Both the position numbers and the translations under genes were made by a program. Below the pieces are notes generated by a model. It was not told the DNA's origin and did not search any database. It saw only the letters and a list, made by a program, of their open reading frames with translations. A stretch of DNA of 64,000 bases from Leucobacter triazinivorans (GTDB lineage Bacteria; Actinomycetota; Actinomycetes; Actinomycetales; Microbacteriaceae): NCBI RefSeq assembly GCF_004208635.1, contig NZ_CP035806.1, forward strand, positions 372,001 to 436,000, read 5' to 3'. The first letter of the stretch is position 1. Each line of letters starts with the position of its first letter. This document shows positions 4,892 to 23,164 of this stretch, piece by piece.

Positions 4892-6631
4892 ATGAAGAGC
4901 CCAACCCCGAACCGCACCGCGGTCGATGACCTTGCGCGACCCTCAGTGCCGTCTGGTGGCGCAATTGCGGTCACCTATCTACGCGTGTCGACGAAAGAGC
5001 AGGCAGAGAAGGGCGGCACGGACGAGGGGTACTCGATCCCGGCCCAGCGTGAAGCGAACCGTCGCAAAGCTGAACAGATCGGTGCAACAGTCATCGAAGA
5101 GTTCGTTGATGCTGGCGAGTCTGCCCGCAAGGCAGACCGGCCCGAGCTAATGCGAATGATCAAGTATGTGGCCGAACACCAGGTCAACTACTGCATCGTG
5201 CACAAAGTGGATCGGCTTGCACGTAACAGGGCTGACGATGTCGCCATCCACCTCGCACTGCGTGACGCGGGGGTCATGCTCGTCTCCGCCAGCGAGAACA
5301 TTGACGAGACCCCGTCGGGCATGCTGCTCCACGGCATCATGTCATCGATCGCAGAGTTCTATTCACGAAACCTCGCCACCGAGACCGTGAAGGGGCTCAC
5401 ACAAAAGGCAGCGCAAGGTGGCACCATCAATCGTGCGCCGATCGGGTACGTCAACATTGGCGTGCGTGATGAACGCGGCCGCGAGAGCCGCACCGTGAAA
5501 GTCGACGAAGAACGAGCCCACCACATCACCTGGGCGTTTCAGGTATACGCCTCAGGCCGTTGGACGCTCTCGCAAATCCATCGCGAACTCATCGCCCGCG
5601 GGCTCACCACCCTGCCAACTCCGAAGCGCCCCTCGAAACCGATCGCGATCTCAACCTTGCACCGGTTACTGTCGAACCCGTACTACAAGGGAGATGTGAC
5701 GTTCAAAGGAGCAACCTACAAGGGCAACCACGACGCGATTGTGCCCAAAGAAGTCTGGTACCAGGTACAGGCCGTGCTCGACGCACACAAATCCGCAGCT
5801 GATGCCACGCAGGTGCATGACCACTACCTGAAAGGCACCGTCTACTGCGGTCAGTGCGGCGAACGACTGATCATCACAAACGCGAAGAACCGCCACGGCA
5901 ACGTCTACCCATATTTCGTGTGCTCAGGCAGGCACTCCGGCAAGACCGAGTGCACAAGGCAAGCCATGCTCATCGAAGATGTCGAGCGGCTCATCGAGAA
6001 GTACTACGAGATGATCGAAGTGTCACCCGGCATGCGGCAAGACCTCGCTGGAAAGATCCACGCTGACTTCGACCTGCTCATGGCGAACGAGACAAAAGAG
6101 CTTTCGCGGCTTACGAGTGAGCGCGACCGGCTCGACGACGAGCGCATGAAACTGTTGCAAGCCCACTACGCGGGGGCGGTGCCGATCGACCTGTTGAAGC
6201 AGGAGCAGGATCGCATCGCGAATCAGATCGGAGACATTCAGCACCGAATCGAAGCGCACCACGATGAATATGCGTCAGCAAGGGCAAACCTCGATGACTC
6301 GCTCGGGCTGCTTGCCAACATCGTCAGCGTGTACGAGCGTGCTGATGACGCAAACCGGCGACTGTGCAATCAGGCGTTCTTCCACCGGATCTTCATCGAG
6401 GAAGACGGGGATGTCCGTGTCGAATACGAACGACCTTTCGGGTCGCTCTGCGATACCGAGGAGCAGATGAACGCTCTGAACTGGGCCGCTGAAGCGAAGA
6501 AGAAGGGAGAGGTTCAGACCGGACAAAGAGTGGTTACTCTTGTCGAGGGTTTGAACCTCTCCCATTTGGGGTGGCTAACGGGACTTGAACCCGCGACCAC
6601 CGGCACCACAAGCCGGTGCTCTACCAACTGA
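4892..6631 (+). CDS. Large serine recombinase (ICE integrase)
   Basis: This 579-residue large serine recombinase should integrate and excise the element. The catalytic resolvase domain (about residues 27-175) has YLRVSTKEQ with the nucleophilic serine and VDRLARNRAD. A recombinase domain follows, then a zinc ribbon with CGQCGERL and a later Cys pair (FVCSGRHSGKTEC). A coiled coil (about 405-480) and a C-terminal tail complete it. The ATG at 4892 is preceded by GGAGA at 7-nt spacing, and the longer open frame upstream is the structured region. The last 21 codons lie inside the tRNA-His gene, so the native C-terminus may differ in the excised form. Confidence 0.93.
   Translation: MKSPTPNRTAVDDLARPSVPSGGAIAVTYLRVSTKEQAEKGGTDEGYSIPAQREANRRKAEQIGATVIEEFVDAGESARKADRPELMRMIKYVAEHQVNYCIVHKVDRLARNRADDVAIHLALRDAGVMLVSASENIDETPSGMLLHGIMSSIAEFYSRNLATETVKGLTQKAAQGGTINRAPIGYVNIGVRDERGRESRTVKVDEERAHHITWAFQVYASGRWTLSQIHRELIARGLTTLPTPKRPSKPIAISTLHRLLSNPYYKGDVTFKGATYKGNHDAIVPKEVWYQVQAVLDAHKSAADATQVHDHYLKGTVYCGQCGERLIITNAKNRHGNVYPYFVCSGRHSGKTECTRQAMLIEDVERLIEKYYEMIEVSPGMRQDLAGKIHADFDLLMANETKELSRLTSERDRLDDERMKLLQAHYAGAVPIDLLKQEQDRIANQIGDIQHRIEAHHDEYASARANLDDSLGLLANIVSVYERADDANRRLCNQAFFHRIFIEEDGDVRVEYERPFGSLCDTEEQMNALNWAAEAKKKGEVQTGQRVVTLVEGLNLSHLGWLTGLEPATTGTTSRCSTN
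6505..6563. terminator. Extended imperfect palindrome at the ICE-tRNA junction
   Basis: GGGAGAGGTTCAGACC (6505-6520) pairs with GGTTTGAACCTCTCCC (6548-6563) with one G-U pair. The interior continues with GACAAAGAGT against ACTCTTGTC around a short loop. The nearly complete 59-nt hairpin overlaps the 3' coding region of the recombinase and lies just past the 3' end of tRNA-His. It could terminate tRNA transcription, recombinase transcription or both. It could also bind recombination proteins next to the att core. There is only a weak T-rich tract, so termination is not certain. Confidence 0.4.
6567..6631. other. Inferred attachment-site region at the tRNA-His 3' end
   Basis: The element abuts the 3' end of tRNA-His, and the recombinase frame extends into the tRNA as far as 6631. 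Elements using tRNA genes recreate the 3' part on integration, so the crossover core should lie here. The matching direct repeat at the far end is outside the window, so core length and exact position cannot be read. Confidence 0.4.
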
Positions 6632-6643
6632 GCTATAGCCACC
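6567..6643 (-). tRNA. tRNA-His (anticodon GTG)
   Basis: Read on the minus strand, the acceptor stem GTGGCTA pairs with TAGCCAC. The D arm GCTC/GAGC, anticodon stem CCGGC/GCCGG around TTGTGGT (anticodon GTG) and T arm GCGGG-TTCAAGT-CCCGT all form. The extra G at position -1 (6643) faces discriminator C73 (6570), which is diagnostic for tRNA-His. The CCA end is encoded (6569-6567). A -10-like TATGAT lies at 6690-6685 upstream. Confidence 0.97.
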
Positions 6644-9337: not shown

Positions 9338-10426
9338 CTATTCTCGGGCACCACACGCATCAGAGCGACCCTCAATACACGGTAGGGTGATCTCACGCTG
9401 CTGCTGCGCCGACCGCTGCGCGGCGAGCGCGAAGGCCAGCACCTCGCGCCCCTGCTCGGCCGTGAGCTTGGGGTCGCGGCCGGTCTCCAGCGCCTCCACG
9501 AAGTCGCGGCCCGAGCGGATGAAGCTCTCCTCCCAGCCGATCGGGACGTTGTCGTAGCTGGTGAGCACCCCGTCGGCGTAGACCTGCACGGCGGGCTGGT
9601 CGAAGAGGCGGCCGTGACCCTGCGCCACCCAGATCACCCCCTTCGTGCCGGTGATCTCGACCCGGTCGTCCTGCGCATAGTGATTGGTCTTGAGCAGCAG
9701 CTCGGGCGAATAGACGACCTCGAGCGACCCGATCGCGCCGTTCTCATGGGTCCAGCTGACGATCGACGGAGCGTCGAGCATGCCGTCCGGCGTCGTCCCG
9801 ATGAACGCGTGGATGCGCGTGGGCAGGCCGAGGAAGTGCCAAGCGACCGCGAACTTGTGGTGCCCGTCGTCGAATACCAGGGGCCCGCCGCCGCACATCT
9901 CGGGGTTCACGCGCCAGGCCTGGGCCGCAGCAGGCACATGCCACTGCGTGGGGCTCATCCCGGGGTTCGACTTCAGGCGGATGCCCACGATCTCGCCGAT
10001 CGTGCCCGCGTCGACGATCTCCTTCGCCTTCATCAGCGGCGGGTAGAAGACGAAGTTCTCGAACACCTTGAAGCGCACGCCGCATTCGCGGGCCAGCTCG
10101 ATCAGGGCATCGGCGTCGGCGACCGACAGCGTCATAGGCTTCTGCAGCGAGACGTGCTTGCCGGCGCGCATCGCGTCGGAGGCGATCGAGAGGTGCAGAT
10201 GGTGAGGCACCAGGATCTCGACCATGTCGATGTCCGGCCGGGCCAGCAGCTCGCGATGATCCGTGTGCACACCGCGCTCCGGCACGCCCCAGGCGGCGGC
10301 GCGGTCGCGCGCCAGCGCCTCATTCGAATCGCAGACCGCGGCGATCGTCGCATTCTCCAGGCCGTCGTAGGCGGCGGCGTGCAGATCGGAGATTCGGCCG
10401 CATCCGATGATTCCAACGTTGAGCAT
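9338..10426 (-). CDS. Gfo/Idh/MocA-family dehydrogenase (inositol dehydrogenase-like)
   Basis: This 362-residue NAD(P)-dependent dehydrogenase has the Rossmann motif GIIGCGRIS (residues 5-13). The catalytic lysine K96 lies in QKP, where the family usually has EKP. FDDGHHKF (185-192) provides the D-x3-H pair corresponding to the Asp/His of inositol dehydrogenase IolG. It should oxidise a hydroxyl of a sugar or cyclitol to a ketone. It is the last gene of the leftward operon with the ABC importer, consistent with acting on the imported substrate. The exact substrate cannot be told from sequence. Confidence 0.9.
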   Translation of the reverse strand: MLNVGIIGCGRISDLHAAAYDGLENATIAAVCDSNEALARDRAAAWGVPERGVHTDHRELLARPDIDMVEILVPHHLHLSIASDAMRAGKHVSLQKPMTLSVADADALIELARECGVRFKVFENFVFYPPLMKAKEIVDAGTIGEIVGIRLKSNPGMSPTQWHVPAAAQAWRVNPEMCGGGPLVFDDGHHKFAVAWHFLGLPTRIHAFIGTTPDGMLDAPSIVSWTHENGAIGSLEVVYSPELLLKTNHYAQDDRVEITGTKGVIWVAQGHGRLFDQPAVQVYADGVLTSYDNVPIGWEESFIRSGRDFVEALETGRDPKLTAEQGREVLAFALAAQRSAQQQREITLPCIEGRSDACGARE

Positions 10427-10459
10427 CTGTGGTTCCTTTCCGCGCGATGCGGGGTCGTG

Positions 10460-11335
10460 TCAGCCTTTCACAGCGCCCGCGGTGAGGCCCGCGGTGAACT
10501 GCTTCTGGAAGAAGATGAAGATGATGATCGTGGGCAGACTGGCGCATACGGCGACCGCGGCCTGGATGCCGTAGGCGGTCGTGTAGGGGCCCTGCAGTGC
10601 CAGCAGGCCCACCATCGCCGACTTCATCTCGTCGCTCCGAGTGAAGACGAGGGGGTAGAGGAAGTCGTTCCAGATGAAGGTGAACTGCAGCGTCGCCAAC
10701 GCGGCGAGCGCGGGGCGAGCGACCGGCAGCACGAGCGAGACCAGCACGCGCAGTTCGCCGGCGCCGTCGATGATACCGGCCTCGCGCAACTCATCGGGGA
10801 TGCTCTCGAAAAAGTTCTTCATCATGAGCGTGCACAGCGCGACGCCGTATCCCGCATGCACGATGATCATCGGCCAGAGGGTGTCGTAGAGGTTCAGCGC
10901 CGTGAACGAGCGGAACAGTGGCAGCAGCAGGATCTGCGGGGGGATGAACAGCCCGGAGACGAGGAAGAGGGTGATGAACTTCTCGCCGCGGGGCTTGAAC
11001 TTCGCCAGCGAATAGCCGGAGAGCACCCCGAGCGCCACCGAGATCAGCGTGGCGGGCACGGTGATGAGGAACGAGTTGACGATGTAGCGCCACATGCCCG
11101 TCTCGGCCCACAGCCGCACGTAGTTGTCGGCGGTGAGCTGCGCGCTCCAAGTCCAGAGGCCATCGTTCGCGATGCTGGCCTCGGTGCGCATCGAGGTGAA
11201 GAGGATGCCGAGGATGGGCGCGACGAAGGTGAGGCCGGCCACGATCATGAGCGCGAGCAGCAGGACCCGGGACGCGTCCATCCGGCGCTTCGGCTTCTTG
11301 CCCTGCGGCAGCAGGAGGAGGCTGGTGGTCGTCAT
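10460..11335 (-). CDS. Sugar-type ABC transporter permease (MalG-like)
   Basis: This 291-residue inner-membrane protein has six predicted membrane segments. It has the EAA loop typical of carbohydrate-importer permeases: ELREAGIIDGAGELRVLVSLV near residue 190. It pairs with the upstream MalF-like permease, with start and stop overlapping by 4 nt, to form the translocation pore. No ATPase gene is present in the locus, so a shared MsiK-type ATPase encoded elsewhere is likely, as is common in actinobacteria. The Gfo/Idh/MocA gene follows after 33 nt. Confidence 0.93.
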   Translation of the reverse strand: MTTTSLLLLPQGKKPKRRMDASRVLLLALMIVAGLTFVAPILGILFTSMRTEASIANDGLWTWSAQLTADNYVRLWAETGMWRYIVNSFLITVPATLISVALGVLSGYSLAKFKPRGEKFITLFLVSGLFIPPQILLLPLFRSFTALNLYDTLWPMIIVHAGYGVALCTLMMKNFFESIPDELREAGIIDGAGELRVLVSLVLPVARPALAALATLQFTFIWNDFLYPLVFTRSDEMKSAMVGLLALQGPYTTAYGIQAAVAVCASLPTIIIFIFFQKQFTAGLTAGAVKG

Positions 11336-12207
11336 TGCTGGGCTCCCTTGCGGCCGGTCCACCAGAAGAAGGTGCCGATGATGGCGGTGGTGAGGAGGAA
11401 GAGGATCACGACCGCCGCGCTCGAGTAGCCGGCGTCGTAGTTGGTGAACGCGATCCGGTAGCTGAAGAGGGCCAGGGTCTCGGTCGTGCGGAAGGGGCCG
11501 CCGGAGGTCATGACGTAGACGATGTCGAAGCTCTTGAGCGCGTTGATCAGCGCGAGCGACATGACCACGATAAGCGCGGGGTTGAGCGCGGGCCACGTGA
11601 CGTGCCTGAAGTGCTGCCAGTGGCTCGCGCCGTCGAGCTTCGCCGCCTCCGAAAGGTCTGCGGAGACGCCCGTGAGGCCGGCGAGGAAGATGATGACGCC
11701 GAGCGCGATCTGCTGCCAGCTCCAGGCGACGAGGACCGCGGCGAGCGCGGTGCCCGAGTCTGCGAGCCACGGGCGGGCGAGGTCGCCGAGGCCGATCGCC
11801 TGCAGCACGATGTTGATGAGTCCGTTGTCGGGCCGCATCAGCCACATCCAGACCTGCCCGACGACGACGAGCGAGAGGGCGAGGGGCAGGAAGAACATGG
11901 TCTTCACGAACTTGCCGAGAACGGTCAGCTTGCCCAGCATGACCGCGATGAGCAGCGAGAGCGCGACGGGGGCGGTGACGGCGACCACCGTCCAGACGAC
12001 CGTGACTCGCAGCGAGCTCCAGAACGCCTCGTCGCCAAATAGTCGCTGGTAGTTCGCGAAGCCGACGAAGTCGGAATCGCCTCCGAGCGTGGAGGCGTTC
12101 GTCATGCTGTCGCTGAACGAGATGACGGCCGGCACGAACACGATGATCGTATAGGCCGCGAGGGGCAGGGACAGGAAGATCCATGCCCATAGGGTCTTGT
12201 GCTTCAT
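11332..12207 (-). CDS. Sugar-type ABC transporter permease (MalF-like)
   Basis: This 291-residue membrane protein has an N-terminal hydrophobic anchor (WAWIFLSLPLAAYTIIVF) and further spans. Its EAA-type loop is DLSEAAKLDGASHWQHFRHV. It is the first permease of a CUT1-family importer together with the overlapping downstream gene. A stem-loop lies between it and the substrate-binding protein gene, which commonly lowers permease expression relative to the abundant binding lipoprotein. Confidence 0.93.
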   Translation of the reverse strand: MKHKTLWAWIFLSLPLAAYTIIVFVPAVISFSDSMTNASTLGGDSDFVGFANYQRLFGDEAFWSSLRVTVVWTVVAVTAPVALSLLIAVMLGKLTVLGKFVKTMFFLPLALSLVVVGQVWMWLMRPDNGLINIVLQAIGLGDLARPWLADSGTALAAVLVAWSWQQIALGVIIFLAGLTGVSADLSEAAKLDGASHWQHFRHVTWPALNPALIVVMSLALINALKSFDIVYVMTSGGPFRTTETLALFSYRIAFTNYDAGYSSAAVVILFLLTTAIIGTFFWWTGRKGAQQ

Positions 12208-12238
12208 CGCTCCTTCTCCAGGCGGAAGTGGCAGACGA

Positions 12239-12271
12239 CTCCCGCCGCGGGCGCACAGCCCACGACGGGAG
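12239..12271 (-). promoter_or_regulatory. Stem-loop between binding-protein and permease genes
   Basis: CTCCCG (12239-12244) pairs with CGGGAG (12266-12271), with an inner GGGC/GCCC pair around a short loop. It sits just after the binding-protein stop. Such hairpins stabilise the upstream message or attenuate transcription in sugar ABC operons. No T-run is present, so partial attenuation or RNase protection is more likely than full termination. Confidence 0.4.
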
Positions 12272-12279
12272 CCGTTCGA

Positions 12280-13590
12280 TCAGTACAGCGACTCGACCTG
12301 GGCCTGCAGCTGGGCCAGGAAGTCCTCGTACGAGGCCGGGCTGTCGACGAACATGGCGAGCATGTTCAGGCCCTCGGACGAGACCTCGGGCGGAGTGGCG
12401 AGGTCGTAGTTGAAGTTGAAGCTCGGCGTCTCGGCGACGATCTTCGCGGCGTTCTGCATTACCTGGTTCTGCTCGCTCATGTCGGCGTCGACGTTCGGGG
12501 CGAGGCCGCCGGCCGCGAGCGCCATGGTGCGCTGCGCGTCGGCCGAGGCGAGGCAGGCGAGCACCTGGTCGGTCGACTCGCTGTTGGCGCCCTTGGCGGG
12601 CACGATCCAGCCGTCCACGGGGCCGAGGGCGGAGGGCTCGACGCCGGGATCGATCTCGGGGAACGGGAACATGTCGTAGCCGGTAACCGGTTCGACGCCG
12701 TTCGAGTCCCAGGCGCCCGTCACCCAGGTGCCCATGAGCGTCATGGCCGCGGTGCCGCCCGAGACCTGGTTCGCGGCGTCGTTCGCGTCGATGCCGTTCG
12801 GGCTGTCGTTGAAGTAGCCCTTGTCGAAGAGCTCCTTCCACATCTCGAACGCGCGAGCGACCTCAGGATCGGTGTACGAGGCCTCACCGCTCATGAGCTG
12901 GGCACGGTAGTCGGGGCCCGCCGTGCGCAGCAGGATGTAGTCGAACCAGAACTGCGCGGGCCAGCGATCCTTCGAGCCGAGCGCGAACGGGGTCACGCCG
13001 TTGGCCTTGAGCTTGTCCGCGGCGTCCATCAGCTCGTCCCAGGTCGCGGGCATCTCGGTGATGCCGGCGTCGGCCATGACCGTCGGATTGTAGAAGAGCC
13101 CGACATAGTGGTAGACGAACGGCAGCAGGTACTTCTCGCCGTCGTAGACGGATGCGGATTCGGTCATGCCGCTCGGGATCACGGCGTCGAGGTCGTTCGC
13201 CTCCCAAAGGCCGTCGATCGGGCGCAGCAGATCCTTCTCGACCAGCGACGCGGTCTTTGCGCCCGCCCAGTAGGAGGCGAGGCTCGGCGGGTTGCCGCCG
13301 GCGAGCTGCACGAGAATCGAGTCCTTGAACGCCTCCTGGCCCATGGGGCCATTGCTGATGGTGGCGCCGGTCTCGGTCCCGCACATCGGGATGATCTCTT
13401 TGAAGGCGGCTTCGCCGAACGCATCGCTGAAGTAGTGCGTCAGGCTGACGTCGCCGCTGCCGGTGCCTTCCCCATCCCCCGAGCCGGAGGGCCCTGAGCA
13501 CGCCGAGAGCAGCAGGCTCGACGTGGCGACCAGCGCGGTCAGTGCGACGACGCGCTTCGCCGCACGATTCTTCATTGAGGTGGGGTGCAT
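12280..13590 (-). CDS. Extracellular sugar-binding lipoprotein of ABC importer
   Basis: This 436-residue lipoprotein has a basic N-terminus, a hydrophobic signal and the lipobox LLSAC, with the lipidated Cys near residue 31. A Gly/Ser-rich linker then leads into a family 1 solute-binding fold (MalE/UgpB-like). It captures the substrate outside the membrane for the two adjacent permeases. The ATG at 13590 has a clear AAGGAG ribosome binding site. An ATG 15 nt downstream lacks one. It follows the regulator gene by 25 nt on the same strand. Confidence 0.93.
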   Translation of the reverse strand: MHPTSMKNRAAKRVVALTALVATSSLLLSACSGPSGSGDGEGTGSGDVSLTHYFSDAFGEAAFKEIIPMCGTETGATISNGPMGQEAFKDSILVQLAGGNPPSLASYWAGAKTASLVEKDLLRPIDGLWEANDLDAVIPSGMTESASVYDGEKYLLPFVYHYVGLFYNPTVMADAGITEMPATWDELMDAADKLKANGVTPFALGSKDRWPAQFWFDYILLRTAGPDYRAQLMSGEASYTDPEVARAFEMWKELFDKGYFNDSPNGIDANDAANQVSGGTAAMTLMGTWVTGAWDSNGVEPVTGYDMFPFPEIDPGVEPSALGPVDGWIVPAKGANSESTDQVLACLASADAQRTMALAAGGLAPNVDADMSEQNQVMQNAAKIVAETPSFNFNYDLATPPEVSSEGLNMLAMFVDSPASYEDFLAQLQAQVESLY

Positions 13591-13615
13591 CCTTGCTCCT
13601 TGTTCGATGGTTGTA

Positions 13616-14407
13616 TCAGGTACCGCGAAGGGGTTTGCCGCCGAGCCGCTCGGTGATGAGCGCGGCGACCTCCGAGACGCGCCGACCGCGATGGTCGAGC
13701 GCCCCGTCCGCGAGAACCACGGCCAGACCGGAGATGCCGATCGAGCCCACGACGGCTCCCGAGTAGTCGAGGATCGGCGCCGCGACGCAGCTGACGCCGA
13801 TGTTCAGTTCTTCCCGGTCGGAGGTGTAGCCGATCCGGCGGGCCGAGCTGATCTCGTCCCAGAGCCCGTCGAGCGTGCTGATCGTGCGGTCGGTGAACCG
13901 CTCGAGGTCTCCGGGCAGGAGATCGTTCAGCTCTTCGGGTGTGGCGAGGAGGAAGAGGGCCTTCCCCGTCGCGGAGGCGTGGATCGGGGGCTGGACGCCG
14001 ATCTCGGTCTCGACGCTGGCTCCGCTCTTCGACGACCCCTCGCGCGCGATGTAGACCCCGCCGCGGCTCAGCCGCCTGGCCAGGTGGACCGGAGCGTCGA
14101 GCTCTTCGCTGAGCGCGCGCATGAACGGGATGGCCACGACTGCCAGGTTCTGCTGTCGCAGCAACGTGCCCGCCATGCGGAAGAGGGAGCCTGATGGGAA
14201 GAAGAGCTTGGTGTGCTCGTCCTGCTCGACGTAGCCGCGATCCGCGAGCGACCGGAGCACTCTGTGGATGTTGCCCTTGTCCGCTCCCAGCTCTGCCGCG
14301 ATGTTGGTTACGCCGATACCGCTGGAGTTCGCCGAGACGACCTCCAGTACGTCGAGGCCCGTATGCAGGGCTCCCGATTGCTTCACTGCCGTTGTTGTTG
14401 TATTCAT
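13616..14407 (-). CDS. IclR-family transcriptional regulator
   Basis: This 263-residue regulator has an N-terminal winged helix-turn-helix (about residues 12-65, with GVTNIAAELGADKGNIHRVL). A C-terminal GAF-like effector domain contains SATGKALF and GYTSDREELNIGVSCVAAPI. Proteins of this family control sugar-acid and aromatic catabolism genes in response to a pathway metabolite. It is the first gene of the leftward transport operon and faces the enzyme operon across a 215-nt region with palindromes. I start it at 14407, where AGGAAG precedes the ATG. The frame is open farther upstream but lacks support. Confidence 0.9.
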   Translation of the reverse strand: MNTTTTAVKQSGALHTGLDVLEVVSANSSGIGVTNIAAELGADKGNIHRVLRSLADRGYVEQDEHTKLFFPSGSLFRMAGTLLRQQNLAVVAIPFMRALSEELDAPVHLARRLSRGGVYIAREGSSKSGASVETEIGVQPPIHASATGKALFLLATPEELNDLLPGDLERFTDRTISTLDGLWDEISSARRIGYTSDREELNIGVSCVAAPILDYSGAVVGSIGISGLAVVLADGALDHRGRRVSEVAALITERLGGKPLRGT

Positions 14408-14547
14408 GCCCTCAATCTTCCTGCACCCGCTCCGCGCGCCGAGTTCGGCGCTCCCGCGGATCCCGAGAGCCGTCGCGCTGGGCGCGGCGGCGACCGGGAT
14501 GCGGTCGAGGGGCGGGGTGAGGGACATGAAACGAGATCCTTTTCGAG

Positions 14548-14615
14548 ACAACAGTTTTGTTTGGGATGATCTATTTTTACAACACTGTTGCGCTTTTGGC
14601 AACATGCGGTAATCT
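14548..14615. promoter_or_regulatory. Divergent promoter region with candidate IclR operators
   Basis: Overlapping dyads occur here: ACAACAGTTTTGTT (14548-14561), CAACACTGTTG (14580-14590) and GTTGC-(7 nt)-GCAAC (14587-14603). A -35-like TTGCGC (14588-14593) and a -10-like TAATCT (14610-14615) are spaced by 16 nt. They end 7 nt before the ATG at 14623, which suggests a leaderless message. The dyads cover the -35 element, so the IclR regulator could block or recruit polymerase here. The AT-rich stretch is unusual for this genome. Confidence 0.5.
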
Positions 14616-14622
14616 GAACGTT

Positions 14623-16527
14623 ATGGAAGACGACCTCACCCCCTCCCGCGCGGAGCGCGCGGCGCGCGCGGACGCCATCGCCCGTCACGGCGGAGTCATC
14701 GCCGCGCTCGACGCCGGCGCGCTGCCCCAGCACCTCGAGATCACCGTCGCAGAGGCCGTGATCCTCGGCCTGCTCGTGCAGGACGTGCGCACGTTCATCG
14801 GCATCTTCGGCCACGGCAGCACGGATCTCGGCGAGGCCATGAGGGTGTACGAGGCGGCCGGGCTGCTCCGCACGCACGCGGTGCGCAACGAGGTCGAGGC
14901 CGCCCACGCGGCCACGGCACTCCGCTGGAGCACCGGGCAGAAGTCGGCCGTCTTCACCTCGATCGGCCCCGGTGCCCTGCAGGCCATGGCCGGCAGCCTC
15001 GCAGCGGCCAGCGACGGCATCGGAGTCTGGCACGTCTACGCGGACGAGACGACCGAAGCCGAGGGCGAGAACATGCAGCAGCTGCCCCGCGGCGAGCAGG
15101 AGCAGTTCTTGCGCCTCACCTCGACGATGGGCCCCTCGTACTCGCTGCACACCCCGTGGGCGCTGCCCGAGGCCCTCCGGCGCGGGCTCAACGCCGTCGA
15201 CGATCCCCACCGCGGGCAGCCCTTCTTCCTGCTGCTGCCCATCAACGTGCAGCCTCAGACCTTCACGCTCAATCTCCGCGCCCTGCCCACCGCCGCCCCG
15301 CCGCGGCTCGGCGCCGCCGCGGGATCCTACGAGGAGGTCGCCCGCCTGCTGATCGAGAGCCCCCGGATCGTCGTCAAAGCGGGTGCCGGCGCGCTCGACT
15401 CCGGCGCCGAGATCGCCGAGCTGCTCGACCTCATCGACGGCTTCCTCGTCACCACCCCCCGGGCATCGGGCCTCCTGCCCCACGACCACCCCCGCAACTG
15501 CGGCGTCGGCGGCTCGAAGGGATCCATCAGCGGCAACCACGCCATGGAGCACGCCGAGATCCTCGTCAACGTCGGCGCCCGCCCCGTCTGCCAATCCGAC
15601 ATGTCGCGCACCGGCTACCCTCGCGTGCGCCGCGTCGTGAACATCAACACCGACGTCTCCGCCGTCACGCACTACAACCTCACCACCGCACTCCGCGGCG
15701 ACGCCGCGGCGACGCTACGGGAGCTCATCGGCGCCGCGCGCCGGCTCGGCGCCGGGACGCAGCGAGAGGGGGCGCCGCAGCCGCTCGAGAGCGAATGGGC
15801 GCGCGAATGCGCCGCCGCGCGCCGGGCCTGGCGCGATCATGCGCACGTGCGCTACGAGAACGAGACGCTCTTCGACCCCGTGTGGGGCAGAGAAGTGCTC
15901 ACCCAGCCCGCCGCGATCCACCTCGTCACCCGCTGGGCGCGCGAGCACGACGCCGTCTCGTTCTTCGACGCGGGCGACGTGCAGGCCAACGGGTTCCAGA
16001 TCGTCGAGGACGAGCGGCCCGGCCAGTCGATCACCGAGACCGGGGCCAGCTACATGGGCTTCGCATCCAGCGCGCTGCTCGCCACGGGCATCGCCGACCG
16101 GCCCTTCTACGGCGTGGCCCTCACCGGAGACGGATCATTCTCGATGAACCCCCAGATCCTCATCGACGGCGTCGAGCACCGCTCGCGCGGCACCATCGTG
16201 CTCTTCGACAACCGGCGCCAGGGTGCCATCTCGTCGCTGCAGCGCGACCAGTACGGCGCCGACTACGCGACCAGCGATCGGGTGGAGGTCGACTACGTCG
16301 GATGGGCCGAAGCCGTCGTCGGCGTCCGCGGCATCTTCGGCGGCACGAGCCTCGCCGAGCTCGAGGCCGCCCTCGACGAGGCCCACGAGCACGACGGCCT
16401 CAGCCTGATCCACGTCCCCGTCTACTTCGGCGACGACCCGCTGGGAGGCATGGGAGCCTTCGGCCGCTGGAACGTCGGCAACAACGTCGCCGAGACCCAG
16501 GCACTTCGACACGGAACGGACCTCTGA
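14623..16527 (+). CDS. ThDP-dependent IolD-like hydrolase
   Basis: This 634-residue protein follows the layout of IolD, the ThDP enzyme that opens the ring of trihydroxycyclohexane-1,2-dione in inositol breakdown. FGHGS (62-66) and the cofactor-activating glutamate E90 (RNEVEAAHAA) come first. SIGPGALQAM, the ThDP-binding GDGSFSMNPQ with FDNRRQ 27 residues later, and a C-terminal GRWNVGNNVAE matching the IolD tail follow. Length equals that of IolD. It probably cleaves a C-C bond in a cyclic or 1,2-diketone substrate. It leads an operon with an aldehyde dehydrogenase 2 nt downstream and an Fe-S dehydratase. No ribosome binding site is seen. Orthology to true IolD is not assured. Confidence 0.85.
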   Translation: MEDDLTPSRAERAARADAIARHGGVIAALDAGALPQHLEITVAEAVILGLLVQDVRTFIGIFGHGSTDLGEAMRVYEAAGLLRTHAVRNEVEAAHAATALRWSTGQKSAVFTSIGPGALQAMAGSLAAASDGIGVWHVYADETTEAEGENMQQLPRGEQEQFLRLTSTMGPSYSLHTPWALPEALRRGLNAVDDPHRGQPFFLLLPINVQPQTFTLNLRALPTAAPPRLGAAAGSYEEVARLLIESPRIVVKAGAGALDSGAEIAELLDLIDGFLVTTPRASGLLPHDHPRNCGVGGSKGSISGNHAMEHAEILVNVGARPVCQSDMSRTGYPRVRRVVNINTDVSAVTHYNLTTALRGDAAATLRELIGAARRLGAGTQREGAPQPLESEWARECAAARRAWRDHAHVRYENETLFDPVWGREVLTQPAAIHLVTRWAREHDAVSFFDAGDVQANGFQIVEDERPGQSITETGASYMGFASSALLATGIADRPFYGVALTGDGSFSMNPQILIDGVEHRSRGTIVLFDNRRQGAISSLQRDQYGADYATSDRVEVDYVGWAEAVVGVRGIFGGTSLAELEAALDEAHEHDGLSLIHVPVYFGDDPLGGMGAFGRWNVGNNVAETQALRHGTDL

Positions 16528-16529
16528 CC

Positions 16530-17978
16530 ATGGCATTCCCCGACCAGCACCCCGACCGCCTCTTCGTCAACGGAGCCTGGCGCGACGCCTCCGACGGACG
16601 CACCATCGACGTGCTGAACCCCGCCACCGAACAGGTGCTCGGCACCATCCAGGCCGCGACGGAGCAGGACGTGGACGAGGCCCTCGCCTCGGCCCAGGCC
16701 GGCTTCGGCGCCTGGCGCTCCACGGACGCCTGGACCCGCAGCGCGCGACTGCGCGAGGTCGCGCGACTGCTGCGCGAATGGGTGCCCGACGCCGCCCGCC
16801 TCATGACGGGCGAGCAGGGCAAGCCGCTCGCCGAGTCGGTCTCCGAATGGAACGCCGCCGCAGACCAGTTCGACTGGTACGCCGACGAGGCGAGACGCAT
16901 CTACGGGCGCACGGTCGACGGGCACAGCACCGCGAACAGGATCACGGTCCGCCGCGAACCCGTCGGCGTCGCCGCCGCGTTCTCCTCGTGGAACTTCCCA
17001 GCCCTGCTGCCATCGCGCAAGATCGCGCCCGCGCTGGCGGCCGGCTGTTCGATCATCGTGAAGCCGGCGCAGGAGGCGCCGTTCTCCACCCTGCTCATCG
17101 CCGAGGCCTGCCGGCAGGCGGACATCCCCGCAGGCGTCGTCACCATGCTCACCGGATCCTCCCGGATGATCAGCGAGCGGCTCATCTCGTCACCCGTGAT
17201 CCGCAAGATCTCGCTCACCGGGTCCGTGCCCGTCGGCCGTCAGCTGCTCCACGCGGCTGCCGACCGCATCATCCCGGCATCGATGGAGCTGGGCGGCCAC
17301 GCCCCCGTGCTCGTCTTCGAGGACTGCGACGTCGAGGCCGCGGGGGGTGCCTGCGCGGCCTTCAAGTTCCGCAACGCTGGTCAGGTCTGCGCCTCGCCGA
17401 GCCGCTTCATCGTGCAGCGGTCGATCGCCGAGCGCTTCACCGAGGCCTTCGTGCGCGCGACCGCCGGCATGAGAGTCGGCGACGGCCTCGACGCGGGCAC
17501 CGACGTCGGCCCGCTCAACAACGCCCGCCGGGTCGAGGCGGCCGCGGCGCTCGTCTCGGACGCCGTCGAGCTGGGCGCGCGGGTCGCTCACGGCGGCGGC
17601 CGCGACGAGCGCTTCGAGCGCGGCTACTTCTTCCATCCGACCGTGCTCACCGGCGTGCCCGCCCACGCCGCCATCATGAGCGACGAGCCCTTCGCTCCGG
17701 TCGCCCCGATCACCGAGTTCGACACCCTCGACGAGGCCATCGCGCTGGCGAACAGCACCGCCTATGGGCTCGCCAGCTACGTCTTCACGAGAGACCTCAG
17801 AACCGCGATCCTCGCCAGCGAGCGGATCGAGGCGGGCATGGTCGGTGTCAACACGCTGGCGATCGCCACGGCCGAGGCGCCCTTCGGCGGCACCAAGGAC
17901 TCGGGCTTCGGGCGCGAGGGCGGGGCCGAGGGCGTGCTGGACTACACGACCACCAAGTACGTGAACATCCAGATCTGA
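16530..17978 (+). CDS. NAD(P)-dependent aldehyde dehydrogenase (semialdehyde type)
   Basis: This 482-residue enzyme of the succinate-semialdehyde/ketoglutarate-semialdehyde branch has the expected residues. N155 lies in SSWNFP, E253 in MELGGHAP and the catalytic C287 in RNAGQVCASP. GEQGKPLAES near residue 95 is typical of the branch. It oxidises an aldehyde to an acid. It is not an IolA-type CoA-acylating enzyme by these motifs. It begins 2 nt after the IolD-like stop and likely handles an aldehyde made by its neighbours. Confidence 0.92.
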   Translation: MAFPDQHPDRLFVNGAWRDASDGRTIDVLNPATEQVLGTIQAATEQDVDEALASAQAGFGAWRSTDAWTRSARLREVARLLREWVPDAARLMTGEQGKPLAESVSEWNAAADQFDWYADEARRIYGRTVDGHSTANRITVRREPVGVAAAFSSWNFPALLPSRKIAPALAAGCSIIVKPAQEAPFSTLLIAEACRQADIPAGVVTMLTGSSRMISERLISSPVIRKISLTGSVPVGRQLLHAAADRIIPASMELGGHAPVLVFEDCDVEAAGGACAAFKFRNAGQVCASPSRFIVQRSIAERFTEAFVRATAGMRVGDGLDAGTDVGPLNNARRVEAAAALVSDAVELGARVAHGGGRDERFERGYFFHPTVLTGVPAHAAIMSDEPFAPVAPITEFDTLDEAIALANSTAYGLASYVFTRDLRTAILASERIEAGMVGVNTLAIATAEAPFGGTKDSGFGREGGAEGVLDYTTTKYVNIQI

Positions 17979-17985
17979 GGCGGGC

Positions 17986-19719
17986 ATGAGCGGAACCGAC
18001 GACATCACACCCACCGATACCGCCGCTGCAGGCGCCGGTGAGCTCACCGGAGTGGATCGGAGCCTCACCAACTACGGCGACACCGGCTTCAGCCGATTCA
18101 TCCGCCGAGCCTTCCTCTCGTCAGCCGGCCTCGACGCCGATGACGTGGCCCGGCCCGTCGTCGGCATCGTCAACACCACCTCCGACTACACCACCTGCCA
18201 CCGCGACATGCCCCAGCTCATCGAGAACGTTAAGCGCGGCGTGCTCGAGGCCGGCGGCATCCCCTTCGTGTTCCCGGTGATGTCGCTCGGCGAGATCCTC
18301 ACCAACCCCACCACCATGCTCTTCCGCAACCTCATGGCGATGGAGCTCGAGGAGCAGCTGAAATCCCAGCCGATGGACGCCGTCGTGCTGCTCGGCGGAT
18401 GCGACAAGACCGTGCCGGCCGAGCTCATGGCGGCGGCATCGGCGGACATCCCGGCGATCCAGCTGGTCGTGGGCCCCATGATGGTGGGCAGCTTCCGCGG
18501 CGAGCGCCTCGGCGCGTGCACCGACTGCCGCAGGCTCTGGAGCGACTTCCGCGGCGGGCGCATGGACGAGGCGAGCATCGCCGAGGCCAACGCCGAGCTC
18601 GCCCCCACGGCCGGCACCTGCATGGTCATGGGCACCGCCTCGACCATGGGCTGCCTCATCGAGGCGCTCGGCATCGCGCTGCCCTTCGCAGGCACGGCCC
18701 CTTCGGTCTCCTCGCAGCGGCTGCGGCTCGGCACCGCCACGGGCAGGCGGGCGGTCGAGCTCGCCAGGGAGGGTCTCAGGCCATCGCAGATCCTCACCGA
18801 GCGGGCGTTCAAGAACGCGCTCGTGGTGCTCTCGGCGATCGCCGGCTCGACCAATGCGGTGATCCACCTCACCGCGATCGCCAAGCGCCTCGGCATTGAG
18901 TTGACGCTCGACGATTTCCACGAGGCCGCGGCCCGGACGCCGCTGCTCGTCGATTGCAAGCCGGCCGGCAGCAACTACCTGCCCGACATGCACCGCGACG
19001 GCGGCATGCCCGCGCTCCTCAAGACCCTCGCACCGCTGCTCGACCTCGATGCGCTCACCGTCACCGGCAAGACGCTCGGGCAGCTGATCGCCGACGAGCC
19101 GGGGCCGCAGCCCTGGCAGCGGGTGATCCGCAAGCTCGAGGATCCCCTGGGCGGCGAGGGCGCGCTCGTCTCGCTCACCGGCAGCCTGGCGCCGCAGGGC
19201 GCCCTCATCAAGGCCGCCGCCGCCACGCCCGAGCTCATGATCCACGAGGGCTCCGCCGTCGTGTTCGACTCGCTCGACGACCTCGAAGCGCGCCTCGACG
19301 ACGAATCGCTCGGCATCGCTCCCGACGACGTGCTCGTCATGCGCAACATCGGGCCCGTCGGAGCCGGCATGCCCGAGGCCGGCTCGATCCCCATCCCCCG
19401 CTACCTCGCCCAGCAGGGCGTGCGCGACATGGTGCGCATCTCGGACGGCCGCATGAGCGGCACCGCCTACGGCACCATCGTGCTGCACTGCAGCCCCGAG
19501 GCCGCGATCGGCGGGCCACTCGGGCTCGTCCGCGACGGGGACCGGATCCGCCTCGACGTGCCGGCTCGCACGCTCGACCTGCTGGTCGACGAGACCGAGC
19601 TCGCGCGGCGGCGCAATGAGCTGCAGCTGCCCGAGCCGCCTCCACGCGGCTGGCGGCGCCTCTACGCCGAGAGGGTGACCCAGGCTACACAGGGAGCGGA
19701 TCTTGACTTCCTGCAATAG
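17986..19719 (+). CDS. IlvD/EDD-family Fe-S sugar-acid dehydratase
   Basis: This 577-residue dehydratase belongs to the dihydroxy-acid/6-phosphogluconate dehydratase superfamily. It has three candidate Fe-S ligands: C71 (TTCHRDMP), C139 (GGCDKT) and C212 (AGTCMVMG). Their spacing of 68 and 73 residues is like that of pentonate dehydratases rather than an amino-acid pathway IlvD. MSGTAYGT near the C-terminus matches the catalytic region. It should remove water from a sugar acid or polyol-like substrate to give a 2-keto-3-deoxy compound. It is 7 nt after the aldehyde dehydrogenase. In this locus it may take the place IolE holds in the inositol pathway. Confidence 0.9.
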   Translation: MSGTDDITPTDTAAAGAGELTGVDRSLTNYGDTGFSRFIRRAFLSSAGLDADDVARPVVGIVNTTSDYTTCHRDMPQLIENVKRGVLEAGGIPFVFPVMSLGEILTNPTTMLFRNLMAMELEEQLKSQPMDAVVLLGGCDKTVPAELMAAASADIPAIQLVVGPMMVGSFRGERLGACTDCRRLWSDFRGGRMDEASIAEANAELAPTAGTCMVMGTASTMGCLIEALGIALPFAGTAPSVSSQRLRLGTATGRRAVELAREGLRPSQILTERAFKNALVVLSAIAGSTNAVIHLTAIAKRLGIELTLDDFHEAAARTPLLVDCKPAGSNYLPDMHRDGGMPALLKTLAPLLDLDALTVTGKTLGQLIADEPGPQPWQRVIRKLEDPLGGEGALVSLTGSLAPQGALIKAAAATPELMIHEGSAVVFDSLDDLEARLDDESLGIAPDDVLVMRNIGPVGAGMPEAGSIPIPRYLAQQGVRDMVRISDGRMSGTAYGTIVLHCSPEAAIGGPLGLVRDGDRIRLDVPARTLDLLVDETELARRRNELQLPEPPPRGWRRLYAERVTQATQGADLDFLQ

Positions 19720-19855: not shown

Positions 19856-21577
19856 GTGAACGAGTGCACATCGACGGAGCGAGCGGATGTCGCGGCGCTG
19901 CGGGAGCGGCCGGGCGCCGACGTCCTCGTGATCGGCGGAGGGATCAACGGCATCGCGGTGTTCCGCGAGCTCGCACTGCAGGGGGTCGACGTCGCCCTCG
20001 TCGAGCGCGGCGACTTCGTCTCCGGGGCGTCCTCGGCCTCCAGCCACATGGTGCACGGCGGCATTCGCTATCTCGAGAACGGCGAGTTGCGCCTCGTGCG
20101 CGAGGCCGTGCAGGAGCGGAACCGACTGACCCGCAATGCACCGCACTACGTCAAGCCGTTGCTGACCACGATCCCGATCTTCTCGACCTTCTCAGGCGTG
20201 CTGACCGCCCCGTTCCGGCTGCTCGTCACGCACGGACGGGGCAAGCCCCGCGAGCGCGGCGCCCTGCTCATCAAGATCGGGTTGATGCTCTACGACACGT
20301 TCTCGCGTGGCGGCGGACGCATTCCGCGCCACCGGTTCCACGGACGCACTCGTTCCCTGCGAGACCTGCCTCGACTCACGCCGTCGATCAAGTACACCGC
20401 GAGCTACTTCGACGCGTCCATGCACAGCCCGGAGCGGCTCGCGCTCGACGTGCTCTCGGACGGCGTCGCGGCCGGCGGCGATCGTGCACGCGCGGCGAAC
20501 TACGTCTCAGCGGTCGGTGCGGTGCCGGACGGGATTCGGCTGCGGGACGAGGTCACCGGCGCCGAGTTCGACTTCGCCGCGCGCCTGGTGATCAACGCCA
20601 CCGGGCCCTGGACGGATCTGACGAACGAGGCTCTGGGTGCGCCCACCTCCTTCCTCGGCGGCACCAAGGGCTCGCACATCGTGCTCGACCATCCGGAGCT
20701 GCTCGATGCGACCGGAGGTCGCGAGATCTTCTTCGAGCACTCCGACGGGCGCATCGTGCTCATCTACCCCGTCAAGGGCCGGGTGCTCGTGGGCACGACC
20801 GACATCGATGCCGACCCTCGCGAGCCGAGCCGCTGCACGGATGAGGAGGTCGACTACTTCTTCGACCTCATCGGGCACGTGTTTCCCGCGATCCGCGTCG
20901 ACCGCTCGCAGATCGTGTACACCTTCTCGGGGATCCGACCGCTGCCGCGGCACGACGACACCGCGCCCGGCTTCGTGTCGCGCGACTACCGCATCGAGCG
21001 CGGTCGTATCGGACGCGCTCCGCTGCTGAGCCTCGTCGGCGGGAAGTGGACGACGTTCCGCGCGCTCGGCGAGCACCTGGCGGACGAAGCGCTCGCCCTG
21101 CTCGGGGCCGAGCGGATCGCGAGCACGCGCGCGACGCCCATCGGCGGAGGGGCCGGGTTCCCCTCGGGGCGGGCCTCGCGCCGCATCTGGATCGCGCGGC
21201 ACGGTCGCGGCCACGATCCCGAGCTCGTCTCCGCACTGCTCGACCGCTACGGCACCTCGGCCGCCGAGGTGCTGCGCGCGCTGCCGTCGGTGCCCACGGA
21301 CTCCCGCGACCTCCCGGGCTATTCCGACGAGGAGCTCGCCTGGCTCGCCGCGCAGGAGCGCGTCGTGCATCTCGACGACCTGCTGCTGCGGCGCACCTCG
21401 CTCGCCTTCACCGGCGGGCTGACCCGTGCCGGGCTCGAGGGCGCGGCGGCAGCGATCGCGCCGGTGCTCGGCTGGAGCGCCGAGCGGTGCGGGCACGAGG
21501 TGTCGCGCACGGCCGAGCTGCTGCGCCGGGAGCACCGCGTGATCCTCGGCGAGTCCGGGATCGCCCCGCTCACCTGA
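19856..21577 (+). CDS. glpD: Glycerol-3-phosphate dehydrogenase, FAD-dependent
   Basis: This 573-residue flavoprotein has the FAD-binding VIGGGINGIAVFREL, the DAO-fold stretch SSASSHMVHGGIRYLE and ATGPWTD. The substrate/FAD region is FSGIRPLP and GGKWTTFR, and a C-terminal helical domain follows. It oxidises glycerol-3-phosphate to DHAP and passes electrons to the quinone pool at the membrane. I choose the GTG at 19856 because GGAAGG lies about 9 nt before it and the FAD motif then starts near residue 18. An open frame extends upstream into the dehydratase gene. The 136-nt gap may hold its own promoter, but no convincing one is visible. Confidence 0.95.
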   Translation: MNECTSTERADVAALRERPGADVLVIGGGINGIAVFRELALQGVDVALVERGDFVSGASSASSHMVHGGIRYLENGELRLVREAVQERNRLTRNAPHYVKPLLTTIPIFSTFSGVLTAPFRLLVTHGRGKPRERGALLIKIGLMLYDTFSRGGGRIPRHRFHGRTRSLRDLPRLTPSIKYTASYFDASMHSPERLALDVLSDGVAAGGDRARAANYVSAVGAVPDGIRLRDEVTGAEFDFAARLVINATGPWTDLTNEALGAPTSFLGGTKGSHIVLDHPELLDATGGREIFFEHSDGRIVLIYPVKGRVLVGTTDIDADPREPSRCTDEEVDYFFDLIGHVFPAIRVDRSQIVYTFSGIRPLPRHDDTAPGFVSRDYRIERGRIGRAPLLSLVGGKWTTFRALGEHLADEALALLGAERIASTRATPIGGGAGFPSGRASRRIWIARHGRGHDPELVSALLDRYGTSAAEVLRALPSVPTDSRDLPGYSDEELAWLAAQERVVHLDDLLLRRTSLAFTGGLTRAGLEGAAAAIAPVLGWSAERCGHEVSRTAELLRREHRVILGESGIAPLT

Positions 21578-21634
21578 CCCCGCACCCGATCGACACCCCT
21601 GCAGCGCACGCATATCCAACGAAGGAGCACACGC

Positions 21635-23164
21635 ATGGCCGACCACGTCATCGCGATCGACCAGGGCACGACATCGACGCGCGCCATCGTCTTCGATCGC
21701 ACCGGCACACCCGTCGCGATCGGGCAGCGCGAGCACGAGCAGATCATGCCGCAGGCCGGCTGGGTCGAGCACGACGCGCTCGAGATCTGGCGCAATGTGC
21801 AGGAGGTGATCGGCATCGCCCTCGGCCGTGCCGATCTCACCCGGCACGACATCGCGGCGATCGGCATCACCAATCAGCGCGAGACGACGGTGGTCTGGAA
21901 CCGACGCACCGGGCAGCCCGTCTGCCGTGCGATCGTGTGGCAGGACACCCGCACGCAGGCGATCGTCGATCGCCTGGCGGCCGACGGCGGGATCGACCGC
22001 TTCGCGGGCGTGGTGGGCCTGCCGCTCGCCACCTACTTCTCGGGCACCAAGCTGGCGTGGATCCTCGAGAACGTCGATGGCGCGCGAGACGCTGCCGAGG
22101 CCGGGGACCTCCTCTTCGGCACCACCGACTGCTGGGTGCTGTGGAACCTGACCGGCGGCGTCGACGGCGGTGTGCACGTCACCGACGTCACCAACGCCTC
22201 GCGCACCCTCTTCATGGATCTGCGCACGCTCGAATGGCGCGACGACATCCTCGAGGTCTTCGGTGTGCCCCGTTCGATGCTGCCGGAGATCCGATCGTCA
22301 TCCGAGGTCTACGGCTTCGCGGAGAGCTCCTCCCTGCTCCGGGAGACCCCGATCGCGGGGATCCTGGGCGATCAGCAGGCGGCGACCTTCGGTCAAGCGG
22401 CCTTCCATGCCGGCGAGAGCAAGAACACCTACGGCACCGGCTGCTTCCTGATCTGCAATACCGGTCGCGAGATCGTGCACTCGGGGAACGGGCTGCTGAC
22501 GACCGTCGGCTACCAGCTCGGCAGCGGCCCCGTGCACTACGCCCTGGAGGGCTCGATCGCGGTGACCGGATCGCTCGTGCAGTGGCTGCGGGATCAGCTC
22601 GGGATCATCGACTCCGCCGCGGAGATCGAGCCGCTCGCGACGAGCGTGCCCGATTCCGGAGGCGTGCACATCGTCCCCGCCTTCTCCGGGCTCTTCGCGC
22701 CGTACTGGCGCCCGGACGCGCGGGGCGCGATCGTCGGGCTCACCCGCTATGCCAACCGGGCGCACCTCGCCCGTGCGGTGCTCGAGGCGGTCGCGTTTCA
22801 GACCCGCGACGTGCTCGACGCCGTGAACGCCGACATCGCCGCCTCGGGCGGCGTGCCGCTCTCTGAGCTGCGCGTCGACGGCGGCATGGTCGGGAATGAG
22901 ACCCTCATGCAGTTCCAGGCCGACGTGCTGGGCGTCCCCGTAGTGCGCCCCGAGGTGGCCGAGACCACCGCGCTCGGCGCCGCGTACGCTGCGGGCCTCG
23001 CGGTCGGGTTCTGGGACGGGCTCGAGGCCCTCACGGCCAACTGGCGCGAGGGCAGACGCTGGGAGCCGCGTCTCGACGTCTCCGAGCGCGAGCGGCGCCT
23101 GCGCGTGTGGAGAAAGGCCGTCGAGAAGTCGATGGATTGGATCGACGACGACGTGCGGGAGTAG
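21635..23164 (+). CDS. glpK: Glycerol kinase
   Basis: This 509-residue FGGY kinase has the phosphate-binding [13 protein letters not shown] at the N-terminus, GITNQRETT and [18 protein letters not shown] and [12 protein letters not shown] occur in the second domain. It phosphorylates glycerol, and the upstream glpD then oxidises the product. A good AAGGAG site precedes the ATG. It is 57 nt after glpD, so they form an operon without a visible glpF. A strong palindrome follows the stop. Confidence 0.97.

Follow-up and report, generated by a model that had tools for sequence, protein, structure and literature searches.

The canonical myo-inositol pathway (IolG, IolE, IolD, IolB, IolC, IolJ, and IolA) includes an oxidation by a Gfo/Idh dehydrogenase and a later cleavage by IolD, a thiamine diphosphate (ThDP)-dependent enzyme, the product of which is an aldehydo-acid. 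Cyclohexane-1,2-dione hydrolase cleaves a cyclic dione in a ThDP-dependent reaction, which also yields an aldehydo-acid that is then oxidized. The inositol route of Thermotoga maritima makes use of a zinc dehydrogenase and a metal hydrolase and is not known to contain a ThDP enzyme. Here we report on a locus of Leucobacter triazinivorans (assembly GCF_004208635.1) that comprises genes for a ThDP enzyme, a Gfo/Idh dehydrogenase, an aldehyde dehydrogenase (ALDH), and an Fe-S dehydratase, and which is a real, conserved catabolic system distinct from the known inositol route. The locus is situated at positions 9338..19719 of the window, i.e., the 64,000-nt stretch of DNA that was analyzed (contig NZ_CP035806.1, positions 372,001-436,000, forward strand). 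Judged from the listings returned, literature searches that were aimed at the cluster did not find a description of it.

Results

The locus consists of eight genes in a divergent arrangement, and the Pfam models agree with the family of each of the eight proteins. The plus strand encodes the ThDP enzyme (14623..16527, 634 aa; PF02775, PF00205, PF02776), the start of which lies slightly inside the listed open reading frame, an ALDH that resembles succinate semialdehyde and alpha-ketoglutaric semialdehyde dehydrogenases (SSADH and KGSADH; 16530..17978, 482 aa; PF00171), and an IlvD/EDD dehydratase, the candidate for the last step (17986..19719, 577 aa; PF00920, PF24877). The minus strand encodes a Gfo/Idh/MocA dehydrogenase, the candidate for the first oxidation (9338..10426, 362 aa; PF01408), two CUT1 permeases, a solute-binding protein, and an IclR regulator. 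The set of four enzymes, CUT1 importer, and divergent IclR regulator that the initial annotation had described was thus recovered at its positions, together with the residues it had cited.

The ThDP protein had been described as an IolD-like hydrolase, and this applies only in a loose sense, to kinship but not to identity. Phylogenetic analysis of 23 rows placed 15 members of the ThDP family in one clade (support 100/100) and three IolD proteins in another (100/98); the two are sister clades (95/95), joined over a long branch, with several long branches flagged by the tree program. The protein groups with IolD, apart from the five other paralogues sampled. A position outside the IolD clade had been named beforehand as evidence against the initial proposal, and the protein does lie outside that clade, though as its sister. 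In 12 alignment rows, the motifs GHG and S(I/V)GPG are common to four ThDP-family and three IolD rows, and the histidine of GHG is replaced by another residue in all five other paralogues. The protein reaches 137.5 bits against the IolD model TIGR04377 (137.1 in the genome search), far below the cut-off of 715; however, the acetolactate synthase of the same genome scores 232.9 bits, and therefore this score alone says little about the ThDP enzyme. Judged by its sequence, the enzyme is not an IolD, and it is best named a sister family of IolD among the families sampled. The automatic name of the inositol ring-opener is carried by 20 of the 120 ThDP-family matches listed.

A scan for relatives of the ThDP gene found 172 confirmed loci, the best 80 of which were kept and counted; many of them end at contig ends. 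Partner genes were scored at thresholds of our own choice (identity of 48% for IlvD, 45% for ALDH, and 35% for Gfo and transport, at least 100 bits). The names transketolase, RpiB-like, and molybdenum hydroxylase stem from model searches with one or two members per cluster, and the name tricarboxylate-type (TTT) was taken from an annotated Phaeobacter locus. The hosts belong to the Chloroflexota, Pseudomonadota, Planctomycetota, Myxococcota, Actinomycetota, Hydrogenedentota, Spirochaetota, Armatimonadota, Thermodesulfobacteriota, and other phyla. An IlvD with at least 48% identity (a close IlvD) is encoded in 39 of the 80 loci, the ALDH in 34, and the trio of ThDP enzyme, ALDH, and IlvD in 33, of which 30 are collinear in this order and on the same strand. 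Locus L110, which is from the same order as L. triazinivorans, has close matches to all eight genes within one 19.9-kb stretch, but in another arrangement, i.e., the genes for the ThDP enzyme, ALDH, IlvD, IclR, solute-binding protein, both permeases, and Gfo (truncated at the edge of the available sequence) follow one another on one strand, with tricarboxylate-type genes on the other side. Because of the frequency and collinearity of the trio and the presence of all eight genes in L110, the grouping of the genes is more than chance. Within this order the locus is sporadic, since only two of 297 genomes, the source genome included, contain the ThDP gene with an E value of 1e-100 or better.

The partners of the ThDP gene are variable. 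A transketolase is encoded in 11 of the 80 loci, in 10 of them with an RpiB-like isomerase, but never together with a close IlvD; 30 loci have neither. A Gfo of the kind found in the window (22 loci) and a molybdenum-hydroxylase set (31 loci) likewise do not overlap, and 27 loci have neither. The ALDH and IlvD are both present in five of the 22 Gfo loci, the combination of Gfo, solute-binding protein, and permease 1 was found in 8/80, tricarboxylate-type importer genes in 24/80, and no scored partner at all in 10/80. Mapped onto the ThDP tree, the labels require a minimum of five changes downstream and of two upstream. Different forms are found on plasmids: a Labrenzia plasmid carries the gene set of the window, with Gfo adjoining the ThDP gene and an additional UgpC ATPase, a Phaeobacter plasmid carries the molybdenum/tricarboxylate form, and a Salipiger plasmid a form with a TRAP importer. 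The ThDP gene appears to be a hub with exchangeable enzyme modules around it.

Several further arrangements were observed. In Phaeobacter piscinae (L090:16974-19992), genes for NAD(P) transhydrogenase directly follow IlvD in the molybdenum/tricarboxylate form. A cluster of RpiB/LacAB-like isomerases is found near the ThDP gene in 12 of the 80 loci (L008, L010, L012, L018, L021-L024, L027, L028, L051, and L053), ten of which also have the transketolase; the one that was tested matches PRK09273, whose model name is "hypothetical protein". Rhizobiales loci such as L080, L082, and L064 combine the ThDP gene with the molybdenum-hydroxylase set, lack a close ALDH or IlvD in the available stretch, and have nearby genes for another Gfo/Idh protein, an alpha/beta hydrolase, an amidohydrolase, or a cyclase-family protein. 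In a Pseudooceanicola locus (L084:3337-20448) the ThDP gene and its neighbors follow a gene for an IolD that belongs to the IolD clade and genes that, by reading only, look like iolC, iolB, and iolE, which hints at a link of the ThDP family to cyclitols.

The initial annotation had placed the Fe-S dehydratase between oxidation and cleavage, in the position of IolE, and this is not supported by the distribution of the genes. IlvD accompanies the ALDH in 33 of 34 ALDH loci, but Gfo in only 6 of 22 Gfo loci, and the other 16 Gfo loci are without a close IlvD in the stretch available (some of which are cut short). Fourteen genomes were picked that have no close IlvD beside the ThDP gene. An IlvD-family match was absent from four of them (L022, L023, L024, and L053), and the best match in the remaining ten did not exceed 41% identity. 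A search for IolE in 24 genomes gave no match in ten and a match over the cut-off in two. Two genomes with Gfo, ThDP enzyme, transketolase, and RpiB-like isomerase (L024 and L053) contain neither an IlvD-family nor an IolE-family match genome-wide, while L023, also without an IlvD match, has an IolE-family protein below the cut-off (187 bits). On balance, a dehydratase between Gfo and the ThDP enzyme seems not to be required. Because of the module census, the mutual exclusion of IlvD and transketolase, and the two genomes without IlvD and IolE, it is more likely that the Fe-S dehydratase acts last, after the ALDH, and is not a replacement of IolE. The census and the dehydratase-free genomes led us to set that replacement aside, and the initial annotation was probably wrong about where this enzyme acts.

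The residues of the enzymes are informative about their possible reactions. The Gfo protein contains Lys96 in a QKP motif and Asp186 and His190 in a DxxxH motif, a combination that we take to be the catalytic motif of IolG; the predicted triad is thus present, although the score against the IolG model TIGR04380 is only 118.2 bits, with a cut-off of 355. The IlvD/EDD dehydratase exceeds the cut-off of a curated subfamily (PRK06131, 788.4 versus 539 bits) and stays below that of the L-arabinonate dehydratase model (654.4 versus 882). Its three cysteines Cys71/139/212, which were proposed to have pentonate-dehydratase spacing, indeed have the same [2Fe-2S] spacing (68 and 73 residues) as Cys59/127/200 of an L-arabinonate dehydratase (PMC9795676).

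The ALDH stays below the cut-offs of two models (TIGR01780, 476.7 versus 646.35 bits; NF042993, 341.7 versus 770), and its closest solved relatives include the KGSADH 5x5t. Arg163, Arg281, Glu253, and Cys287 have the same numbers as in the Azospirillum KGSADH (AbKGSADH), for which PMC5385487 reports that Arg281 is crucial for both semialdehydes and that, in docking, it contacts alpha-ketoglutarate semialdehyde at its keto group and succinate semialdehyde at its carboxyl group. Among the ALDHs of the 33 trios, motif comparison revealed an equivalent of Arg281 in all and of Arg163 in 32; the ALDH of L017 does not fit the Arg163 pattern, and that of L013 has a cysteine instead of the phenylalanine before the first arginine. 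The five ALDHs of transketolase loci are without either arginine, and the member tested (L008) belongs to the methylmalonate semialdehyde dehydrogenase (MMSDH) family. The two arginines, which in the solved relative contact semialdehydes with keto and carboxyl groups, suggest that the product of the ThDP enzyme is an aldehydo-acid. The proposed direct oxidation of the aldehyde without coenzyme A (CoA) gains support from Glu253 and Cys287, since these are at the catalytic positions of KGSADH and the enzyme is not of the CoA-acylating MMSDH type.

Genes for inositol degradation are present elsewhere in the same genome. Near 2.0 Mb two IolD (810.5 and 754.8 bits), IolB (234.3, cut-off 205), and IolC (370.2, cut-off 300) are encoded, all over the respective cut-off, together with a CoA-acylating MMSDH and IolE- and IolG-family proteins below the cut-off, the best IolE-family protein having 154.2 bits with a cut-off of 290. 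The region from 2.013 to 2.047 Mb (L107 and L108) contains a canonical cluster of IolC, MMSDH, IolB, and IolD, with the second IolD about 16 kb further. Inside the window, no IolE- or IolB-family match was found (E up to 0.001) and no IolD, IolE, or IolB over the cut-off; IolC and IolJ were not searched for there. For comparison, PMC9430895 defines an inositol gene cluster by at least three of iolB, iolC, iolD, and iolE in one cluster, a definition under which the window does not qualify. The initially noted absence of IolE, IolB, IolC, and IolJ therefore holds for IolE and IolB in the window, but not for the genome, which has IolB, IolC, and two IolD. The reading of the window as the inositol pathway of this genome was dismissed in view of the location of the true iol genes, and because of these genes the locus is a second system. 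The view of a coherent catabolic locus apart from the canonical inositol genes is supported.

The importer is encoded by the genes for permease 2 (10460..11335, PF00528), permease 1 (11332..12207, PF00528), and the solute-binding protein (12280..13590, PF01547), the top-scoring solved chain of which is AcbH (3oo6, 154.4 bits); they are followed by the IclR-family regulator (13616..14407; PF01614, PF09339), all on the minus strand. The divergent promoter region contains an interrupted palindrome (14549..14590) with 12-nt arms, which are 92% complementary, and a spacer of 18 nt. It is a candidate operator, the arms being described without a control for chance matches. Directly 3' of the IlvD gene, GlpD-like and GlpK genes (19856-23164, plus strand) probably form a separate glycerol unit. 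They were rejected as pathway members, as in tblastn GlpD had no match among the 80 loci and GlpK had two, with 29-30% identity. A tRNA-His gene (6567-6642, minus strand) is located some 2.7 kb away from the locus, on its Gfo side.

Discussion

We tentatively propose, with slightly less than even confidence, that the locus is a self-contained operon by which a sugar or cyclitol is catabolized, with the order of Gfo oxidation, ThDP cleavage, ALDH oxidation, and IlvD dehydration. The observed basis is limited to the conserved gene set, the module exchange around the ThDP gene, and the residues, and from these we infer all steps. After uptake by the CUT1 importer, the Gfo/Idh enzyme would, according to its family and motifs, oxidize one hydroxyl group to a ketone, and the ThDP enzyme would cut the C-C bond beside it and release a carboxylate-bearing aldehyde. 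Judged from its residues, the ALDH would convert this aldehyde without CoA to a polyhydroxy diacid, and IlvD/EDD would dehydrate the 2,3-dihydroxy acid to a 2-oxo-3-deoxy acid, which would enter central metabolism. A C4 diacid (tartrate) would yield oxaloacetate and a C5 2,3-dihydroxy diacid 2-oxoglutarate without a further enzyme, which would suit an operon that ends at IlvD. The transketolase/RpiB branch could be read as isomerization and C2 removal on the same aldehydo-acid. A cyclitol-type compound is favored as substrate because of the sister relation between the cleavage enzyme and IolD and because the importer is a sugar-type system, whereas an anionic keto-sugar acid is the more probable substrate of those relatives that have tricarboxylate-type or TRAP importers.

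Several points weigh against this proposal. A C6 substrate or diacid would need an aldolase after IlvD, and the operon encodes none. The groups bound by Arg163 and Arg281 could be hydroxyl or keto groups rather than a carboxylate, and aldehydes bearing such groups are also conceivable as cleavage products. The exclusion of Gfo and molybdenum hydroxylase is limited to the Gfo kind of the window, since Gfo/Idh-like clusters of other kinds are present in seven of the 31 loci with the molybdenum set. The loci are related, so that Fisher p-values overstate the evidence for association. L024 and L053 are metagenome-assembled genomes of unknown completeness. In L016 and L026, which have Gfo and the ThDP enzyme, a divergent IlvD/EDD (38-39%) is encoded directly 3' of the ThDP gene, and this dehydratase could act before cleavage. 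A TIM-barrel protein that scores weakly as an IolE or an epimerase is found in some relatives.

A linear route of the Weimberg type is an unlikely explanation, albeit one that fits several of the families. Gfo would oxidize an aldose to an aldonate, IlvD would form the 2-keto-3-deoxy-aldonate, the ThDP enzyme would decarboxylate it, and the ALDH would oxidize the shortened aldehyde. Gfo/Idh, IlvD/EDD, and KGSADH-like ALDHs are families of oxidative pentose pathways (PMC9795676), the cysteine spacing is that of arabinonate dehydratase, and 5x5t is among the closest solved ALDHs. However, there are loci with Gfo and ThDP enzyme but no close IlvD, the ThDP protein groups with IolD and not with the five other paralogues sampled, and neither a lactonase nor a second dehydratase is among the eight genes.

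Rather less likely is that a 5-keto-aldonate-type compound is split between C4 and C5 by the ThDP enzyme to tartrate semialdehyde, which the ALDH would oxidize to tartrate and IlvD convert to oxaloacetate. A pair of transketolase and succinate semialdehyde dehydrogenase has been proposed to lead from 5-ketogluconate to tartrate (PMC7970118 and PMC12016104), the tricarboxylate-type importer genes in 24/80 loci and the TRAP importer in L088 suit an acid, and no aldolase would be needed, matching the operon end at IlvD. On the other hand, the window encodes a CUT1 importer of the sugar type, the relation to IolD suggests cleavage of a ring or dione, and tartrate is only a putative substrate of IlvD.

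It is also conceivable, but improbable, that the ThDP enzyme by itself stands in for both IolE and IolD in a phosphoketolase-like reaction from inosose to 5-deoxyglucuronate, and that ALDH and IlvD, or RpiB and transketolase, are non-phosphorylating replacements of IolB, IolC, and IolJ. The inosose would be opened beside the ketone, the ThDP-bound fragment would lose the neighboring hydroxyl group as water, and the acyl-ThDP would be hydrolyzed. By arithmetic, the conversion balances as an isomerization, with C6H10O6 on both sides, and if this hypothesis is true, no dehydratase is needed between Gfo and the ThDP enzyme.

The order of the initial annotation, in which Gfo forms an inosose and IlvD dehydrates it instead of IolE, followed by cleavage of the dione by the ThDP enzyme and oxidation of the product by the ALDH, is the least probable, because the enzyme types of inositol breakdown, the sister relation to IolD, and the arrangement in L016 and L026 are outweighed by L024 and L053, which have Gfo and ThDP enzyme but neither dehydratase family, by the tracking of ALDH rather than Gfo by IlvD, and by the magnesium of IlvD/EDD enzymes, the ligand of which is most likely the substrate's C1 carboxylate (PMC9795676), a group that an inosose does not have.

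A ThDP family with members that have been automatically named inositol ring-opener seems to be the center around which a modular pathway is built in many phyla. If its substrate were identified, annotations could be corrected, and it would be seen whether a single ThDP enzyme can take the place of a dehydratase and a hydrolase.

The proposed route shares with the canonical myo-inositol pathway the Gfo/Idh oxidation and the subsequent cleavage by an IolD-related ThDP enzyme. It differs in that the locus in the window is without IolE and IolB, that an ALDH and an Fe-S dehydratase are encoded beside the cleavage enzyme, and that the true IolB, IolC, and IolD are encoded elsewhere. Cyclohexane-1,2-dione hydrolase (PDB 2pgn) is similar in its chemistry of ThDP-dependent dione cleavage, with only a weak sequence match of 48 bits, and it differs from our system in that the latter has a separate ALDH. 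The inositol route of Thermotoga maritima is set apart by its enzyme types. This route (operon TM0411-TM0416) is similar to our system insofar as its intermediates differ from those of the IolE/IolD scheme (PMC5931981). With the Azospirillum-type oxidative pentose (Weimberg) pathway the locus shares the Gfo/Idh, IlvD/EDD, and KGSADH-like ALDH families, but differs in having an IolD-sister ThDP enzyme as its conserved hub.

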